From contig JAJYDC010000006.1 in assembly GCA_021777835.1 (NCBI GenBank), forward strand, positions 1 to 64,000: 64,000 nucleotides of DNA. The letters are read 5' to 3'. The notes beneath the pieces are model-generated. The model did no database searches and was not told where the DNA came from. It was given only the letters and a program-made list of their open reading frames with translations. Shown piece after piece: positions 2-52,194 of the stretch; position 1 is the first letter of the stretch, and every line of letters starts with the position of its first letter. Position numbers and translations under genes: made by a program. The stretch comes from Bacteroidota bacterium. Lineage in GTDB: Bacteria > Bacteroidota > Ignavibacteria > Ignavibacteriales > Ignavibacteriaceae.

Positions 2-202
2 ACAGTGGCTAAGGCTCAGATGGTTAACATCTCCATCTATAACATCATCGGACAGAGGATTACGACTTTAGTCAACCGGATGTATGCCCCCGGCGCTTAC
101 TCTGTTCAGTTTAATGCCGGCAATATGCCTAGCGGTATTTACTTCTACCGGCTTACTTCTAATGATTACGTTGATATTAAGAAAATGATTCTAATGAAGT
201 AA
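2..202 (+). CDS. C-terminal end of a T9SS-secreted protein (partial)
   Basis: The reading frame is open to the left edge, so only the last ~66 residues are visible. They look like a type A sorting domain of the type IX secretion system: a short beta-rich module with VNISIYNIIGQRITTLV, then GAYSVQFNA, then PSGIYFYRL, ending in KKMILMK. In the family this domain directs cargo through the outer membrane and is cleaved on export. The function of the cargo cannot be told from this fragment. A strong hairpin follows the stop codon. Confidence 0.8.
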   Translation, partial: TVAKAQMVNISIYNIIGQRITTLVNRMYAPGAYSVQFNAGNMPSGIYFYRLTSNDYVDIKKMILMK

Positions 203-3845: not shown

Positions 3846-3977
3846 TTGACTTTATCGGTATTTAGGGGAAGAAATCCAACAAGAATATGGTTGACCGACT
3901 GGTTAGTCATTTTTATATTGCTTGGTATAATATTTATCATTATTTTAGCCAGGTATACTTATAAAGGTTTCAGATGA
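3846..3977 (+). CDS. Possible 43-aa single-span membrane peptide
   Basis: A TTG-started frame encodes a short basic N-terminus, one hydrophobic span (WLVIFILLGIIFIIILA) and a basic tail (RYTYKGFR). Its TGA overlaps the ATG of the next membrane protein gene as ATGA, the usual sign of coupled translation, and the next gene also encodes a membrane protein. Against it: no Shine-Dalgarno, a TTG start, A+T-rich DNA encodes F/I/L by chance, and the same bases hold a good promoter with an operator-like palindrome. The two readings compete; I favour the promoter. Confidence 0.25.
   Translation: MTLSVFRGRNPTRIWLTDWLVIFILLGIIFIIILARYTYKGFR
3891..3919 (+). promoter_or_regulatory. Promoter of the HemX-hemA-hemC-tetR/hemD genes
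   Basis: TTGACC (3891-3896) and TATATT (3914-3919) are separated by exactly 17 bp, close to the sigma70 consensus. Read as a Bacteroidota-type promoter it is TTG-N20-TATATTG, the same spacing as the candidate promoter of the YceI gene in this window. Transcription would start near 3926, leaving a ~48-nt leader before the ATG at 3974, which has AAAGG in front of it. The spacer contains a TetR-operator-like palindrome. Confidence 0.55.
3892..3909 (+). promoter_or_regulatory. TetR-family operator-like palindrome
   Basis: TGACCGACTGGTTAGTCA is an 18-bp imperfect palindrome. The half sites TGACCGACT and TGACTAACC agree at 6 of 9 positions and every mismatch keeps the purine/pyrimidine pattern (TGACYRACY). 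Size and layout resemble operators of TetR-family repressors. It fills the space between the -35 and -10 elements, so a bound protein should block the promoter. The obvious candidate regulator is the TetR domain fused to HemD three genes downstream (inference). Confidence 0.5.
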
Positions 3978-4798
3978 AAGCAATTATAGACTCGATAAAT
4001 CTTCTCCTTCCGATATTTTATCTCGTTACGTTTGGGTTCTACTTTTACGATTTTATGAAAACGGGGAAGAAATTTGCAAATTCCAAGCGATTGTTTTTAT
4101 TCCTAACATTATTGATTCATTTTTGCTATCTTCTTTTCAGAACCATTTATTTTGATCATCCTCCAATTACAAATGTCTTTGAGATATTTACAGTTCTAGC
4201 ATTCGCAGTCGGATTTTCTTATTATATATTAGAGTTAGTCACCGATATTCGCGGAACTGGACCTTTTATAATTATTATATCTATTTTCTTCCAGCTAATT
4301 TCAACTGCTTTTATTCCCGATGTTTTTCAGGTAAAAGAAGTTTTGAGGAATCATCTGCTTGGTGTACATGTATTTAGCGCATTAACTGGTTACTCTGCGT
4401 TTGCCATCTCATGTGTATATGGGTTTCTATATTTAATACTTTACAAACAAATTAAACTAAATAAATACGGCTTAATATTCGACCGGCTTCCGAGTCTTGA
4501 TGTTTTAGAAAGGCTAAGCTTTATTTCGGCAATAATAGGATTCTTTCTTTTATCAATAGCAATTTTTATTGGTATTATCTGGCTTCCGAAAGCATTTCCA
4601 AAGTTTTCTTATATCGACCCAAAGCTAATAGGAACATTCTTAGTCTGGATTCTATACGGACTCGGAATACTAAGCAAAGTTGTTGGTAAGTGGCAGGGTA
4701 AGAAAGTAGTAATTTTTTCAATACTCGGTTTTGTAATAGCAATACTTTCTACAATGATGTCAAATTTCTTATCTCAAAGTTTTCATTCTTTTTATTAA
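3974..4798 (+). CDS. HemX/CcsA-family membrane protein
   Basis: A 274-residue polytopic inner-membrane protein with about eight hydrophobic spans, of the cytochrome c assembly (CcsA/HemX) superfamily. Visible features include conserved histidines (LIHFCYLLFRT, NHLLGVHVFSALTGY) and the PITNVFEIFTVLAF segment. The tryptophan-rich WWD heme-handling motif of true CcsA cytochrome c synthases is not visible, which favours a HemX-like role. In Bacillus, HemX sits before hemA and lowers HemA levels; here it is likewise followed by hemA after 6 bp. Role in controlling glutamyl-tRNA reductase is inferred from this synteny. Confidence 0.75.
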   Translation: MKAIIDSINLLLPIFYLVTFGFYFYDFMKTGKKFANSKRLFLFLTLLIHFCYLLFRTIYFDHPPITNVFEIFTVLAFAVGFSYYILELVTDIRGTGPFIIIISIFFQLISTAFIPDVFQVKEVLRNHLLGVHVFSALTGYSAFAISCVYGFLYLILYKQIKLNKYGLIFDRLPSLDVLERLSFISAIIGFFLLSIAIFIGIIWLPKAFPKFSYIDPKLIGTFLVWILYGLGILSKVVGKWQGKKVVIFSILGFVIAILSTMMSNFLSQSFHSFY

Positions 4799-4804
4799 AA
4801 TAAA

Positions 4805-6097
4805 ATGAACATATTAGCTATTTCAATAAATCATAAGACTGCTCCGGTTGAAGTTAGGGAAGCAGTTTACCTAAGCAACGAAGAGATTAAAAATCTAACG
4901 AGCAGTATAAAGAATTCTCTCTTCACGGAAGGACTAATTGTTACCACGTGCAACCGGACGGAAATTTATGGAATTCCTGCGAATCAGAATTTAAGTCACG
5001 AAGAAATTCAGAATGCATTACTGAATTTCAAATCGGTCTCAGGACTAAAGCCTGAACATTTCCAATACCTATCATCAGCAAACGCAATAAAGCATTTATT
5101 TAGTGTTGCTACCGGAATAGATTCTCTTTTAATAGGAGACAATCAGATATTCAAGCAAGTAAAGGATTCGTTTCAAACAGCAGAGGATTTGAATTTTACC
5201 GGATTCTTAATGAAGAGGATCTTTGATTCAGCAGTTAAAGCCGGAAGGCGGGCAATATCTGAGACTGGAATAAGCGAAGGGGCCGTTACAGTAAGTTATG
5301 CTGCAGTTCAATTAATTGAAAAAATATTCTCAAACCTAAGTAAGAAATCAGCGCTAGTAATAGGCGCTGGCGAAACAGGAGAGATTGCAGCCAAGCATCT
5401 TAGAGAAAGAGGGATAGGGAATTTAACAATTACGAACAGAACCTACGAGCGCGCCGAGAAACTTGCAGAATCTCTTTCGGCTAAGATATTACCGTTCACA
5501 AATTTCAAAGATTCATTACATGAATTTGATATTGTACTAAGCGCTACTAGCTCTGACAGCCTAATTCTGACTAAAGCCGACGTACTTGCCGCGATGAAAA
5601 AACGTAACTACAACTCACTGATTTTGATGGACATAGCAATTCCTCGCGACATTGACCCTGAATCAAAGAGTATTGATTATGTTTTTTACAATGATATTGA
5701 TTCGCTCAACATAATTGTTCAGCAGAATTTAATCAAGCGCAAAGAGGAAATCCCAAAGGTTGAGAAAATAATAGAAGAAGAGTTGAATACTTTTTTAAAT
5801 TGGTTTAATTCTCTTGAAGTTGCGCCGACAATAAAGGATTTGCGTGATTACTTCGAAGCCGTCAGGCTTGATGAAATTGAGAAGAACAAGAATAGATTTT
5901 CACCCGAAGATCAGGAGAAACTTGAAATTATAACAAAAAGAATTATAAACAAGATTCTGCACCACCCTACAGTTGAATTAAAGAAATACACAGAAAGCGG
6001 AGTAAACTCTGACGAGGCAGCTCAGAAAGTCAGTATAGTCCGGGAATTATTCGGAATGACAAAGAATGATGAAAAGGAAGACAAAAGTGAAAAATAA
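4805..6097 (+). CDS. hemA: Glutamyl-tRNA reductase
   Basis: NADPH-dependent reduction of glutamyl-tRNA to glutamate-1-semialdehyde, the first committed step of C5 heme synthesis. 430 residues. The catalytic cysteine is Cys49 in VTTCNRTEIYG, the substrate loop is NHKTAPVEVRE, the NADPH-binding segment VIGAGETGEIAAKHL lies near residue 186, and a C-terminal helical dimerisation domain follows. Its presence shows this organism uses the glutamate route rather than ALA synthase. It overlaps or abuts hemC, so the two are co-translated. The partner enzyme HemL is not in this window. Confidence 0.96.
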   Translation: MNILAISINHKTAPVEVREAVYLSNEEIKNLTSSIKNSLFTEGLIVTTCNRTEIYGIPANQNLSHEEIQNALLNFKSVSGLKPEHFQYLSSANAIKHLFSVATGIDSLLIGDNQIFKQVKDSFQTAEDLNFTGFLMKRIFDSAVKAGRRAISETGISEGAVTVSYAAVQLIEKIFSNLSKKSALVIGAGETGEIAAKHLRERGIGNLTITNRTYERAEKLAESLSAKILPFTNFKDSLHEFDIVLSATSSDSLILTKADVLAAMKKRNYNSLILMDIAIPRDIDPESKSIDYVFYNDIDSLNIIVQQNLIKRKEEIPKVEKIIEEELNTFLNWFNSLEVAPTIKDLRDYFEAVRLDEIEKNKNRFSPEDQEKLEIITKRIINKILHHPTVELKKYTESGVNSDEAAQKVSIVRELFGMTKNDEKEDKSEK

Positions 6098-7049
6098 GAT
6101 TACAATAGGATCACGAGGAAGTGATTTAGCACTCTGGCAAGCCAATTTCGTTAAGAGAGAGTTAGAGAAAAATAATAAGGGTATTTCAGTTCAGATTAAG
6201 ATTATTAAAACTACAGGTGATAAAATTCTTGGGGTTGCCCTTTCAAAGATCGGAGACAAGAGTTTGTTTACTAAAGAACTTGAAAATGCTCTTCTAAGCG
6301 GTCAAATAGATCTTGCAGTACATAGCTTAAAGGATTTGCAAACAGAACTTCCAGATGGACTAAAACTAGCAGCGGTTTCAAAACGTCATCCGGTTGAGGA
6401 TGTTTTAATTGGAAAGAAGAAAGGTATCACGCTTCAAACATTAAGAGAAAATGCGGTTATTGCAACCGGTTCATTAAGACGTAAATCGCAACTAATGCAT
6501 CTTCGTCCCGACATTAAAATGATTGAACTACGAGGAAATGTTCCTACTAGAATCGAAAAGTTTTTGAAATCAGATTGGGATGGGATTATCCTTGCGCGAG
6601 CAGGAGTAGAACGGTTGAAGTTAAGTAAGTATATTTCTTCGATCATTAGCTCCGACGTAATGCTGCCTGCAGTAGGTCAGGGTGCACTTGGAATAGAAAT
6701 CCACGAAGAGAACACATTTGCCGAGCATGTTCTAGAATCCATTCATGACGAAGACACTTATTTAGCAGTTTTGGCAGAACGTTCGCTATTAAGAACACTC
6801 GAAGGAGGCTGCCAGGTACCAATCGGAGCTTTTGCACAAGTAAAGTCAAATGGAATATATCTAGATGCGTTGGTTGGAGCACTTGATGGAACAGTTACAT
6901 TTAGAAAGAAGATGCGGGGAAGGAAAGACGAGTCCGAAAAGCTTGGTAAATCACTTGCTAAGGATTTATTAAAAGCCGGAGCTAAAGAAATATTAGATGA
7001 TATTTACTTGACATCCCGTCGAGTAAACATTAGCAGTAAACGAAAATGA
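6087..7049 (+). CDS. hemC: Hydroxymethylbilane synthase (porphobilinogen deaminase)
   Basis: Polymerises four porphobilinogens into hydroxymethylbilane on a dipyrromethane cofactor. The cofactor cysteine is in EGGCQVPIGAF (about residue 249 counted from the upstream ATG) and the catalytic Asp in HSLKDLQTELPDGL. I chose GTG 6087 because AAAGGAAG lies at good spacing before it and the protein then begins KNKITIGSRGSDLALWQ, as in the family; ATG 6066 or 6069 in the same frame are alternatives. Either start overlaps the end of hemA. The stop overlaps the next ATG as ATGA, so the TetR-HemD fusion is translationally coupled to it. Confidence 0.95.
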   Translation: MKNKITIGSRGSDLALWQANFVKRELEKNNKGISVQIKIIKTTGDKILGVALSKIGDKSLFTKELENALLSGQIDLAVHSLKDLQTELPDGLKLAAVSKRHPVEDVLIGKKKGITLQTLRENAVIATGSLRRKSQLMHLRPDIKMIELRGNVPTRIEKFLKSDWDGIILARAGVERLKLSKYISSIISSDVMLPAVGQGALGIEIHEENTFAEHVLESIHDEDTYLAVLAERSLLRTLEGGCQVPIGAFAQVKSNGIYLDALVGALDGTVTFRKKMRGRKDESEKLGKSLAKDLLKAGAKEILDDIYLTSRRVNISSKRK

Positions 7050-8437
7050 TCTTAGAAAAGAAACGAGACAGTAAAAAGAATATAAAGAGGAAGAAAATAA
7101 TAGATTCTGCCTCCAATCTATTTTCACGCAATAGCTACCACGAAGTAATGATGGAAGATGTAGCAAAAATGTCGGGAATAGCTAAAGGGACAGTCTATAC
7201 ATATTTTTCTTCAAAGGAGGAATTATATTTTTCCATTATGCGTCTGAGAATGGAAAAGCTAACAACATCATTAAAAGAAAAGATTAAAGATGAGACTAGC
7301 AGAGTTGATTCGCTTCATTCCTTTGTAATACATCTTTATATGTTTATGATGAAGTATCGTGATTTTTTCTTAATGTACCGGAAGGAGTCACTTAATGCAG
7401 AAAATGAGCTTTGCTCTGAATTGGTGGCGTTAGAGAAGGAATTAAAAAGTCTCTTAGCGGGTATTATTGAATCAGGCAAGTCGGAGAACCTTTTCAGAAA
7501 TATTGAAACTGACTTTGCAGTTGACATAATACTTGGCAGTGTATATGGGACCATTCATAGGGGTATTGAGAATTATTCTCCCGAAGAAAAATTGATTATT
7601 GAGAGAGAAAAAGTTTTTGATTTTATCATGCACGGATTATTTTACAGTTTTGAAACTATTAACTCGTTGCCTTTAAGAAATAAGACCATAGTTATTACAA
7701 GGGCAATAGAGCAGTCGAAAGAATCTTCTGAAACATTTAAACAACTTGGCGCAAACGTAATAATTTTCCCAACTCTTGATATTGTGCCGCCGGATAGCTG
7801 GAGTCAATTTGATTCCATAATCACAGGCAAAGCGAAGATAGATTTTATAATATTCACGTCTGCTTATGCAGTAAAGATGTTTACGTTAAGATGTAACGAA
7901 TTGAATGTAAAACTTGATTTCAATAGGATAAAGATAGTAGCAGTCGGAAATAAAACTGCAGCAATATGCGAAAGGCATAATATTCCTGTGCATATCATTC
8001 CGCAAAAATACAGCGCTAACGGAGTGATCAACGAACTATCTAACTATGATCTTGAAAGCAAAGTTATTTTTATTCCCCGATCGGCAATCGGTCGCGAAGA
8101 ACTTCCAGAAGAACTAGAGAAGCTAGGGGCAATTATAAAAAGCGCTCCCGCTTATAATGTATCTATTCCGCCGCCTGAAATTATCAAAGATAATTTGGAA
8201 AGATTAAGACAAAGCACTCCGGATATATTTATCTTTACGAGCCCTTCCACCTTTGAGAATTTCTTGACTATATTAAAAATTTCCGAGCCGGTAAATTACT
8301 TCGTAAGAAGCGAAGTAGCTGCAATAGGACCATCAACTAAAACTGCAATTGAGAATAGGGGAGTTCATGTAAGTATTATGCCGGATGAGTATACAATTGA
8401 CGGATTAGCCAAGGCAATTGTAGAATATTATAAATAA
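7046..8437 (+). CDS. TetR-family regulator fused to uroporphyrinogen-III synthase
   Basis: A single uninterrupted 463-residue frame with two complete halves. Residues ~12-205 are a TetR-family repressor: the HTH includes DVAKMSGIAKGTVYTYFSSKEEL (39-60 region), followed by an all-helical ligand/dimer domain ending near HGLFYS. Residues ~209-463 are HemD, which cyclises hydroxymethylbilane to uroporphyrinogen III: NKTIVITRA at its start, then FIIFTSAYAV, VGNKTAA, FIFTSPSTFENF and AAIGPSTKTAIE. The HemD half is of normal length (~255 aa), so it is probably active. ATG overlaps the hemC stop (ATGA). Actinobacterial HemD fused to a C-terminal winged helix is a known but different fusion. Regulation of its own operon is an inference. 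Confidence 0.92.
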   Translation: MILEKKRDSKKNIKRKKIIDSASNLFSRNSYHEVMMEDVAKMSGIAKGTVYTYFSSKEELYFSIMRLRMEKLTTSLKEKIKDETSRVDSLHSFVIHLYMFMMKYRDFFLMYRKESLNAENELCSELVALEKELKSLLAGIIESGKSENLFRNIETDFAVDIILGSVYGTIHRGIENYSPEEKLIIEREKVFDFIMHGLFYSFETINSLPLRNKTIVITRAIEQSKESSETFKQLGANVIIFPTLDIVPPDSWSQFDSIITGKAKIDFIIFTSAYAVKMFTLRCNELNVKLDFNRIKIVAVGNKTAAICERHNIPVHIIPQKYSANGVINELSNYDLESKVIFIPRSAIGREELPEELEKLGAIIKSAPAYNVSIPPPEIIKDNLERLRQSTPDIFIFTSPSTFENFLTILKISEPVNYFVRSEVAAIGPSTKTAIENRGVHVSIMPDEYTIDGLAKAIVEYYK

Positions 8438-8466
8438 AATTCAGTTATGTAATAAAGGAGATATTG

Positions 8467-9540
8467 TTGAGTAAATTAAAGAATGATTTGTTTTTAAGAG
8501 CATGCAGAAAAGAGCCTATTGAAAGAACTCCCATATGGATTATGCGACAAGCAGGAAGATATTTGCAGGAATATAAGAAAGTTAGAGAGAAAGCTGATTT
8601 TATTACGATGTGTCAAACACCTGAACTTGCGGCGGAAGTTACAATTCAGCCGGTAGATATTATAGGGGTAGATGCGGCTATTATTTTCTCTGATATTTTA
8701 GTGGTTCCCCAAGCAATGGGAATGGAGTTTCAAATGATTGAAAGCAAAGGCCCCGTTTTCCCGCAACCGATAAGAAATGAAGATGACGCTAGAAATCTAA
8801 AAGATGTTGATCCGGAAAAGAACTTAAGGTATGTTCTTGATGCAGTTTCACTTGCAAAAAAAGAGCTTGACGGAAGAGTACCATTAATTGGTTTTGCCGG
8901 TTCACCGTGGACGCTTCTAACATACATGGTTGAAGGAAGGGGTTCTAAGAATTTTACTTATGTAAAGAAAATGATTTACAATAACCCAAAACTGGCACAT
9001 AGTATATTAGATAAACTTGCAACTGCAGTAGCTAAATATCTTTCGGCAAAAATTGATGCCGGCGTTAATGCGGTTCAGATTTTTGATACATGGGGAGGAA
9101 TACTTTCGCCTTCTGATTTCGAAGAGTTTTCTTTAAGATATATTTCTCAAGTTATTTCCGAAATAAAAAGAAAAGAAGAGCCGGTGATAGTCTTTTCCAA
9201 GGGTGTTCATCATAGCCTCGATAAGCTTTCTAGCACCGGAGCCGATGTTATAGGGTTAGACTGGACTATGAATCTAGATGAGGTGAGAAAAAAGATCGGC
9301 CGTAAGGTCGCGCTGCAAGGGAACTTAGATCCTACTGTCCTCTATGCTGGCGAAAATAAAATTAGAGAAGAAGCGAAAAAAGTTCTTGATTCTTATGGTG
9401 AAGGAAGCGGGCATATCTTTAATCTGGGACACGGAATTCTTCCTGATGTTGATCCGGAAATGGCGAAGGCGCTTGTTCAAATTGTTAAGGAAGAAAGCAG
9501 AGTGTTTCACGGTAAAAATGCGGAGATACTAGGACAATGA
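8467..9540 (+). CDS. hemE: Uroporphyrinogen decarboxylase
   Basis: Removes four carboxylates from uroporphyrinogen III to give coproporphyrinogen III (cytosol). About 357 residues, normal length. The signature PIWIMRQAGRYLQEYKKVR lies at the N-terminus, with GFAGSPWTLLTYMVEG and QIFDTWGGILSP further on, and LQGNLDPTVLY and FNLGHGILPDVDPE near the end. Start: AAAGGAG is 6 bp before the second TTG (8467), better than the first TTG (8464). It lies 29 bp after the TetR-HemD stop, consistent with one operon. Confidence 0.96.
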   Translation: MSKLKNDLFLRACRKEPIERTPIWIMRQAGRYLQEYKKVREKADFITMCQTPELAAEVTIQPVDIIGVDAAIIFSDILVVPQAMGMEFQMIESKGPVFPQPIRNEDDARNLKDVDPEKNLRYVLDAVSLAKKELDGRVPLIGFAGSPWTLLTYMVEGRGSKNFTYVKKMIYNNPKLAHSILDKLATAVAKYLSAKIDAGVNAVQIFDTWGGILSPSDFEEFSLRYISQVISEIKRKEEPVIVFSKGVHHSLDKLSSTGADVIGLDWTMNLDEVRKKIGRKVALQGNLDPTVLYAGENKIREEAKKVLDSYGEGSGHIFNLGHGILPDVDPEMAKALVQIVKEESRVFHGKNAEILGQ

Positions 9541-51708: not shown

Positions 51709-51837
51709 TTATTATTTAATAGTTAATACATGACTTAAATCACTCATAATACATAATTAATTCTTTTTTGAACAAATTTGAGCTAGATAATTATGAGCTT
51801 GCTGTTACTGAATGGAGGGGCAATGTTGACCAGGAAG

Positions 51838-52194
51838 TCATTTTAATTTGAATAATTTTTCCTTCTCAGATTTCTTTAATCCTTCAACTATAAGATTATA
51901 GGAATCGTCAATCCAGTCTAAAATATATTTATTTGGAATGTTGTTTTCGAGAAGGATAGTATTCCAATGCATTTTATTCATATGATATCCCGGAGTAACA
52001 TCAGCATAATGCTCTCGTAATTCAACAGCTTTCTCAGGATCGCATTTAAGATTTATACTGACCGGCGGATTTATGTTTGCTATAAGAAAGATTTTACCCA
52101 TTACTTTATAAACAGGGGTATCACCACCAAATGGAAGGCTTTCTGTGACTCCCTTCTTATTTAGGCAATATTCTCTAACAGTTTCTAAATCCAT
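51838..52194 (-). CDS. MmcQ/YjbR family protein
   Basis: 118 residues, a complete YjbR fold: VREYCLNKKGVTESLPFGGDTPVYKVMGKIFLIANI, then SINLKCDPEKAVELREHYADVTPGYHMNKMHWNTILL and a last helix YILDWIDDSYNLIVEGLKKSEK. A cytosolic family with a DNA-binding-like fold but no shown function. 11 bp after hemB on the same strand, hence probably co-transcribed with it. Confidence 0.92.
   Translation of the reverse strand: MDLETVREYCLNKKGVTESLPFGGDTPVYKVMGKIFLIANINPPVSINLKCDPEKAVELREHYADVTPGYHMNKMHWNTILLENNIPNKYILDWIDDSYNLIVEGLKKSEKEKLFKLK

Follow-up and report, generated by a model that had tools for sequence, protein, structure and literature searches.

The 18-bp palindrome TGACCGACTGGTTAGTCA that lies before the heme operon of an Ignavibacteria genome is a real and conserved predicted operator, and comparative evidence supports its assignment to the TetR protein linked in the same operon to HemD, the enzyme that performs ring closure in heme synthesis. 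In the window, that is, the whole stretch of 64,000 nucleotides analysed here, this protein is encoded as a TetR-HemD fusion, which very probably binds the palindrome and regulates its own operon. A second operon, headed by lpdA, is a likely further target.

The palindrome and its operon

The earlier note had described a palindrome at 3892-3909 with the half sites TGACCGACT and TGACTAACC, and both were present exactly as claimed. The palindrome, called O1 below, was the sole match in the window with at most three mismatches, none being found in 100 shuffles, and its end lies 64 bp before the hemX ATG (3974). The gene order that the note had read directly downstream, hemX-hemA-hemC-tetR/hemD, was confirmed, with hemE as the next gene (Table 1). 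In the window and its closest relatives, O1 is an 18-mer composed of two overlapping 14-bp sites, 4 bp apart. The degenerate form TGACYRACYRGTYRGTCA, searched with at most two mismatches in the 3.6-Mb genome, matched the palindrome (0 mismatches) and one further place (2 mismatches); its reversed control gave one match. The form YGACYNRYNRGTCA was no commoner in the window's genome than its control (2 and 1 vs 3 and 1). Six operator positions were invariant in 31 sites, which is partly by construction, as the sites were picked by the TGAC/GTCA pattern.

Table 1. Positions of the predicted control elements and of the heme operon genes in the window
Feature	Position	Strand	Remark
Operator O1 TGACCGACTGGTTAGTCA (predicted)	3892..3909	.	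18 bp; -61 to -44 from predicted start
Canonical 14-bp operator register CGACTGGTTAGTCA	3896..3909	.	Spacing to promoter conserved in relatives
-33 element TTG, Bacteroidota-type promoter (predicted)	3918..3920	+	
-7 element TATTTTAG (predicted)	3941..3948	+	5/6 consensus positions
hemX, cytochrome c assembly / CcsB-like membrane protein	3974..4798	+	First operon gene
hemA, glutamyl-tRNA reductase	4805..6097	+	
hemC, porphobilinogen deaminase	6066..7049	+	
tetR-hemD fusion	7046..8437	+	Proposed O1-binding regulator
hemE, uroporphyrinogen decarboxylase	8464..9540	+	Next gene downstream

The TetR-HemD protein

The fusion comprises TetR_N (residues 18-62), TetR_C_24 (85-168), a low-confidence linker (201-206), and HEM4 (227-455). 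All three Pfam models scored above their cut-offs: PF00440 with 50.5 bits (cut-off 24), PF17932 with 28.3 (26.4), and PF02602 (HEM4) with 166.7 (27.5). With TetR_N above the Pfam cut-off and an all-helical C domain, the first half belongs to the TetR/AcrR family; the HEM4 domain, the fold, and the place in the heme operon identify the second half as HemD. This assignment is at the level of the domain family, as the best of the narrower NCBIfam uroporphyrinogen-III synthase equivalogs reached 123.6 bits against a cut-off of 275. The NCBIfam FadR equivalog gave 77.9 bits against a cut-off of 200. The AlphaFold model (pLDDT 88) shows two confident domains around the low-confidence stretch, and with a pTM of 0.51 their relative placement is not fixed by the model. 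The best fold match of the HemD half was 1jr2, and the TetR half matched FadR-type TetR structures, among them 3whc, the stearoyl-CoA complex of FadR. TetR-HemD was the only HEM4 protein found in the 98.4% complete genome, and hemC and hemE adjoin it; as the sole HEM4 protein found, it would be expected to have HemD catalytic activity.

Among the 98 frames of at least 80 amino acids in the window, the fusion was the only TetR-like one, as the earlier note had stated; the scan used a model built from these TetRs and one other, which a very remote TetR could escape. In 32 fusions, the majority residue averaged 96% in the recognition helix (46-53), 59-71% in the ligand domain, and 70% in HemD. 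H96 and K103 of the ligand domain occurred in 37 and 38, respectively, of 39 aligned hem-linked TetRs. The nearest titled relatives came from Bacteroidetes/Ignavibacteriales MAGs. When 345 genomes were sampled evenly across the phylum, seven matched the TetR part (E at most 1e-22), all from the window's order, and a sample of 149 genomes of the class contained full-length fusions in family f13 as well.

Some gene arrangements deviated from that of the window. The tetR-hemD frame at L127:240-1625 (G010:C458) holds a stop codon, reflecting either a sequencing error or decay. At L091:7062-8789 (G019), a 576-aa frame carries two HemD-like stretches in tandem and no TetR. Between hemC and hemD, a gene coding for about 200 aa, whose start looks lipoprotein-like by eye, is present at L067:5634-6338 and also in L076, L083, L086, and L089; it is not in the window.

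Footprinting across genomes

Of 59 genomes, 58 contained hemA relatives. Leaving the window aside, operon sequences were retrieved from 56 of these, giving 57 loci; G026, in which hemA is split, was left out, and G035 had no hemA match. Three rows (L104, L116, and L118) were omitted for having no hemX upstream sequence. The simple pattern TGAC-N6-GTCA or TGAC-N10-GTCA, with at most one mismatch, was counted in 55 loci, the window among them, whose upstream sequence was long enough. It occurred in 27 of 29 upstreams from TetR-HemD genomes and in none of 26 upstreams without TetR, and the sites were mostly located 74-88 bp before the hemX ATG.

To keep the test from being circular, 13 sites from the window's genus served to train a matrix, which was then applied to other loci. 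The genus loci L063-L074 formed the training set and stood outside the 32 tested loci with TetR; the loci scanned were 3.9-15 kb long, all from outside the training genus. Among 32 loci with TetR, fused or beside hemD, 25 had their locus-wide best 14-mer in the 200 bp before hemX; of 27 loci without TetR, none did (Fisher p 1e-10, relatedness ignored). Upstream scores were at most 5.6 in every TetR-less locus and above 8 in 27 of the 32 TetR loci. This footprinting before hemA, which the earlier note had proposed as its own test, came out in its favour: the palindrome follows TetR and is absent where TetR is absent. A palindromic operator near the regulator's own operon is the TetR-family pattern, and here the conserved palindrome, a predicted operator, tracks the TetR protein.

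Seven TetR loci ranked below first: L078 (rank 2), L143 (3), L194 (7), L148 (11), L140 (14), L076 (40), and L077 (43). Five fusion loci among these (L076, L077, L140, L143, and L148) have no O1, and four of the five keep a half site resembling O2, a second operator near the start site described below. The four form the G013 clade (L077, L140, L143, with L148), where only this half site is kept. The remaining one, L076 (G030), has no site before hemX and no strict site genome-wide; its recognition helix is intact, and its TetR is also without H96 and K103. At L079 the upstream site is found at -144, and L092 has the start-site operator only. Genome G025 carries a second, non-fused hem contig (L081) with the same score as G174 (288 bits); it is probably contamination and was counted among the TetR-less rows and in the tree.

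Phylogeny and unfused relatives

A HemA tree of 74 rows was labelled for 71, with operator labels set by hand and L194 taken as positive. On this tree, the TetR state changes at least seven times and the operator state at least nine. Well-supported branches yielded five independent pairs; operator and TetR agreed in an average of 4.8 of these and conflicted in none. The sign test p of 0.0625 is the minimum attainable with five pairs, so that the tree-aware test alone stays above 0.05. Family f3 gives one example, G046 having neither TetR nor operator and its sister G038 having both.

In three distant genomes, G130 and G148 of family f22 and G066 of f11, tetR stands on its own between hemC and hemD, a like operator is present, and the hemD ATG overlaps the tetR end. 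Just before hemX, the site reads TGACTGACCGGTCAGT in f22 and ACTGACCGGTCAGT in f11, and ACTGACCAGTCAGTCA was found in four fused f13 loci. The strict pattern TGACYNRYNRGTCA occurred once each in G130 (unfused) and G068 (fused), both times before hemX; its reversed control matched elsewhere, once in G130 and five times in G068. The separate tetR with its hemD-overlapping end and like operator in distant families suggests that tetR was translationally coupled to hemD before the two genes fused.

Promoter and spacing of the operators

The earlier note had placed the palindrome inside a promoter made up of TTGACC, which starts at 3891, and TATATT, which ends at 3919, at a spacing of 17 bp. The hexamers and their spacing are there in the sequence, and their promoter role did not hold. 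Between 3000 and 5000, 11 sigma70-like pairs were counted vs 8.4 +/- 2.9 in shuffles, which is chance level, and among 38 fusion upstreams the pair around the palindrome is kept only in the window, L063, and L064; L075 has a different pair. A sigma70 promoter at 3891-3919 was rejected on these grounds.

Aligning the upstreams on the operator revealed a conserved TTG, 20 bp, and TAnnTTTG downstream of it. The pattern TTG-19..21-TAnnTT[TA][GA] within 100 bp of the ATG was found in 32 of the 38 fusion upstreams, with 1.3 expected, and in 6 of 26 non-fusion upstreams, with 1.2 expected; TAHHTTTG occurred in 14 of the 26 non-fusion upstreams. The Bacteroidota promoter consensus is TTTG/TAnnTTTG with G at -5, according to PMC6847099, and the conserved element before hemX is, by sequence, a promoter of this type. 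The numbering in that paper predicts a transcription start near 3953, in place of the 5' end near 3926 that the earlier note had expected. With this start, O1 would cover -61 to -44, upstream of the -33 box.

In many loci, the second operator, O2, lies directly after the -7 box (ACYNATNAGTCA). In families f13, f22, and f11, no site other than O2 was found before hemX, and at the hem promoter of the window no O2 was recognisable. Counted between the final bases of operator and -7 element, the hem distance was 39 or 40 in 25 of 31 cases; the others were 31, 32, 36, and 37, with two not called, and helix phase was broken in 4 of 31. Before lpdA, the same distance was 49 in six genomes, 60 in five, and 70 in five. 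In some genomes the lpdA -7 element was chosen among several candidates, partly by eye, and two of these 16 sites were below threshold (G013 and G030), the one in G030 being a variant seen by eye. As steps of 10-11 bp equal one helical turn, the distances are compatible with a regulator in contact with RNA polymerase; the independent changes are few, and this helix-phased spacing is suggestive of such contact.

A likely second target

Strict operators were found about 80-120 bp before the dihydrolipoamide dehydrogenase gene in eleven fusion genomes (G000, G001, G004, G005, G007, G012, G022, G024, G025, G031, and G034), and G003 has one before a partial copy of this gene. In the window's genome (G000), lpdA heads a series of lpdA, lipB, fused E1, E2, and lipA outside the window (L281:6578-13554, G000:C95), with the operator starting 117 bp before lpdA. 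Of 21 fusion genomes, 14 had a site before lpdA that scored above 8 with the hem-trained matrix; none of 26 genomes without the fusion had one. By family, these were 14 of 17 fusion genomes in the window's family and 0 of 4 in f3; the site was absent in G028. The threshold of 8 was set by us; the best non-fusion genome reached 7.2 (G035), and G013 missed with 7.6. Because lpdA was found via pattern matches in G000, G001, G004, and G024, with G003 added in the same way, the count was repeated without these five discovery genomes and gave 9 of 16 fusion genomes. L245/G033 and L285/G027, with no lpdA upstream, were left out, and 11 of 59 genomes had no lpdA match at the search threshold. From this placement, the lpdA-lipB-E1-E2-lipA operon is likely a second target of TetR-HemD. 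The hem operon appears to have been targeted first and the oxoacid dehydrogenase operon to have been recruited later, a view of lpdA that covers families other than f13, f22, and f11.

Over 26 genomes, the strict pattern was not commoner than its reversed control (40 sites vs 36). With a number so near the control, the argument rests on placement: 22 of the 40 sites lie before hemX or lpdA, 7 inside a ybaB-like frame, and 11 are scattered. G046, which is without this TetR, has two strict sites elsewhere. The sites in the ybaB-like coding frame, named by eye, occur in eight genomes (G001, G002, G003, G004, G007, G010, G012, and G024) and were taken as homologous codons. As a further target, hemB was rejected, with no conserved site before it in 30 loci scanned; these loci were unoriented, and the symmetric matrix covers both strands.

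Several isolated sites were also recorded. Operator-like sites lie downstream of hemB in G000 (window 51827-51840), G001, and G004 (L180:2911-2924 and L159:2912). The site precedes a gene judged by eye to be yceI-like by 198 bp in G000 and by 185 bp in G001; no site as strong was present in the remaining hemB loci scanned. In G001, a strict operator lies 124 bp before a CcmB-like heme exporter gene (L220:1501-1625, G001:C11:315400); the gene scored 36.4 bits, below the NCBIfam cut-off of 156.2, and no other genome showed an operator before a ccmB-like gene. The incomplete genome G016 has four strict sites, one of which, TGACTGACCGGTCA (L277:1501, G016:C95:3589), lies 263 bp before a HemW/HemN-like radical SAM gene, judged by eye.

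Discussion

The autoregulatory loop is well supported, because the operator tracks TetR and a separate tetR occurs with a like operator in three distant genomes. The earlier note had proposed that a heme enzyme represses its own transcription; the loop stands on the co-occurrence and the unfused loci, and the site within a hexamer promoter is not supported. In the proposed loop, the TetR half would bind TGACY-N4-RGTCA as a homodimer, and the bound protein would control transcription of hemX-hemA-hemC-tetR/hemD-hemE. A heme-pathway enzyme would thereby help to set the level of its own expression. Lying over the start site, and the sole operator in distant lineages, O2 would repress, and the helix-phased upstream sites (hem O1 and those of lpdA) may act by contact with RNA polymerase. 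The signal could be a ligand of the TetR pocket, with an acyl-CoA or a tetrapyrrole of the pathway as candidates; alternatively, it could be whether the active site of HemD is occupied. The acyl-CoA idea derives from the closeness of the TetR part to FadR and from the newer target, which makes acyl-CoAs; the tetrapyrrole idea derives from the fusion to HemD and the H96/K103 signature.

Three readings would give the palindrome a different role, and each appears improbable. A TetR-HemD dimer seated between TTGACC and TATATT might sterically repress a sigma70-type promoter, which the presence of both hexamers at 17-bp spacing and the general tendency of TetR proteins to repress would favour. The chance-level hexamer pair, its retention in only three fusion upstreams, the widespread Bacteroidota-type pattern, and the consensus in PMC6847099 make this very improbable. 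Less credible still is that the palindrome serves the pyrimidine-nucleoside phosphorylase gene upstream as an intrinsic terminator. At 3887-3910 there is indeed a stem of 10 pairs with T-rich sequence after it, one such structure being found vs 1.1 expected by chance, but the conserved part is the TGAC/GTCA sequence (partly by construction of the site picking), the T tract is absent in many relatives, the distance to the upstream gene varies widely among loci, and loci without TetR do not have the palindrome. A terminator was rejected for the unconserved T tract and the varying place of the upstream gene. The operator might also belong to an unlinked TetR or another regulator that correlates with the fusion, as other TetR proteins occur in the compared genomes; distant families whose hem operon has an unfused tetR carry a like operator, and the operator goes with this TetR in independent tree pairs, which renders an unlinked owner unlikely.

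A more serious alternative concerns the sign of regulation. TetR-HemD may be a pure feedback repressor, with O1 extending into the footprint of the polymerase immediately before the -33 box and a tetrapyrrole or acyl-CoA relieving repression. The start-site O2 in distant lineages and at many derived loci is the classic repressor position, O2 has decayed in the window's subclade while O1 is 18 bp there, and repression is the habit of the TetR family. Against this, the sites before lpdA, at about -54 to -88, are too distant upstream to act by simple blocking and step by about one helical turn; no second site was noticed there. We give the pure repressor a little under an even chance. The predicted geometry at lpdA does not fit plain promoter blocking, and the upstream site there more probably activates than represses; at the hem promoter of the window, where O2 is lost, activation and repression appear about evenly balanced. 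A broader reading, which we hold only tentatively and consider rather unlikely as a whole, is that TetR-HemD is an enzyme-sensor contacting RNA polymerase from helix-phased upstream sites and jointly driving heme synthesis and 2-oxoacid dehydrogenase/lipoylation. The ligand would then be a tetrapyrrole intermediate seen by HemD or one bound in the H96/K103 pocket, and a coupled repressor would have fused to hemD, turning from a start-site repressor into an upstream contactor.

TetR-HemD offers a testable case of a tetrapyrrole enzyme that is predicted to be a transcription factor as well, with fused and unfused states in living relatives. A defined candidate operator, promoter, and two-operon regulon are available for it. 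If true, the model would explain how Ignavibacteria set their heme supply and would tie heme synthesis to 2-oxoacid oxidation and lipoate.

Comparison with known systems

NnaR of mycobacteria and Streptomyces resembles TetR-HemD in that a HEM4/HemD domain is fused to a DNA-binding domain; its HemD part is N-terminal, its DNA-binding domain is of the response-regulator type, and it serves nitrate/nitrite use, as described in PMC6277429. Streptomyces NnaR is reported there to be without HemD activity, another HemD being the likely catalyst (PMC6277429). Unlike NnaR, the protein studied here has its TetR part N-terminal, is the only HEM4 protein found, and has sites before its own heme operon. 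The Pfam models place TetR_N before HEM4 and show no other DNA-binding domain. NCBIfam PRK07239, which we take to be the NnaR kind of HemD fusion, gave 35.8 of 273 bits, far below its cut-off.

Among proteins of solved structure, the TetR part is by sequence closest to the FadR/PfmR proteins (B. subtilis 3whb/3whc, B. halodurans 5gp9, and T. thermophilus 3vpr), whose structures are also among its best fold matches. The GAC/GTC half sites resemble the T. thermophilus FadR site TTRNACYNRGTNYAA, as given in PMC5597230. TetR-HemD differs from FadR/PfmR in half-site spacing and in the fusion to HemD, and H96/K103 are present here and were not seen in the aligned B. subtilis FadR. FasR of mycobacteria is a distant TetR-family relative that is named an activator; TetR-HemD gave 48.8 of 330 bits, below the NCBIfam cut-off, and differs in that its TetR part is fused. 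The targets of FasR differ from those here.

Trigger enzymes such as BirA and PutA are enzymes that also regulate the genes of their own pathway. For TetR-HemD, the fusion architecture, the predicted operator, and their co-occurrence were seen by sequence; the enzyme and the DNA-binding domain are others than in BirA/PutA. Among the open-access literature matches listed, no TetR-HemD fusion and no TetR regulator of the hem operon in Ignavibacteria was apparent. TetR-HemD would be a new enzyme-regulator, in a setting where HemD-like DNA-binding fusions and enzyme-repressors are already known.
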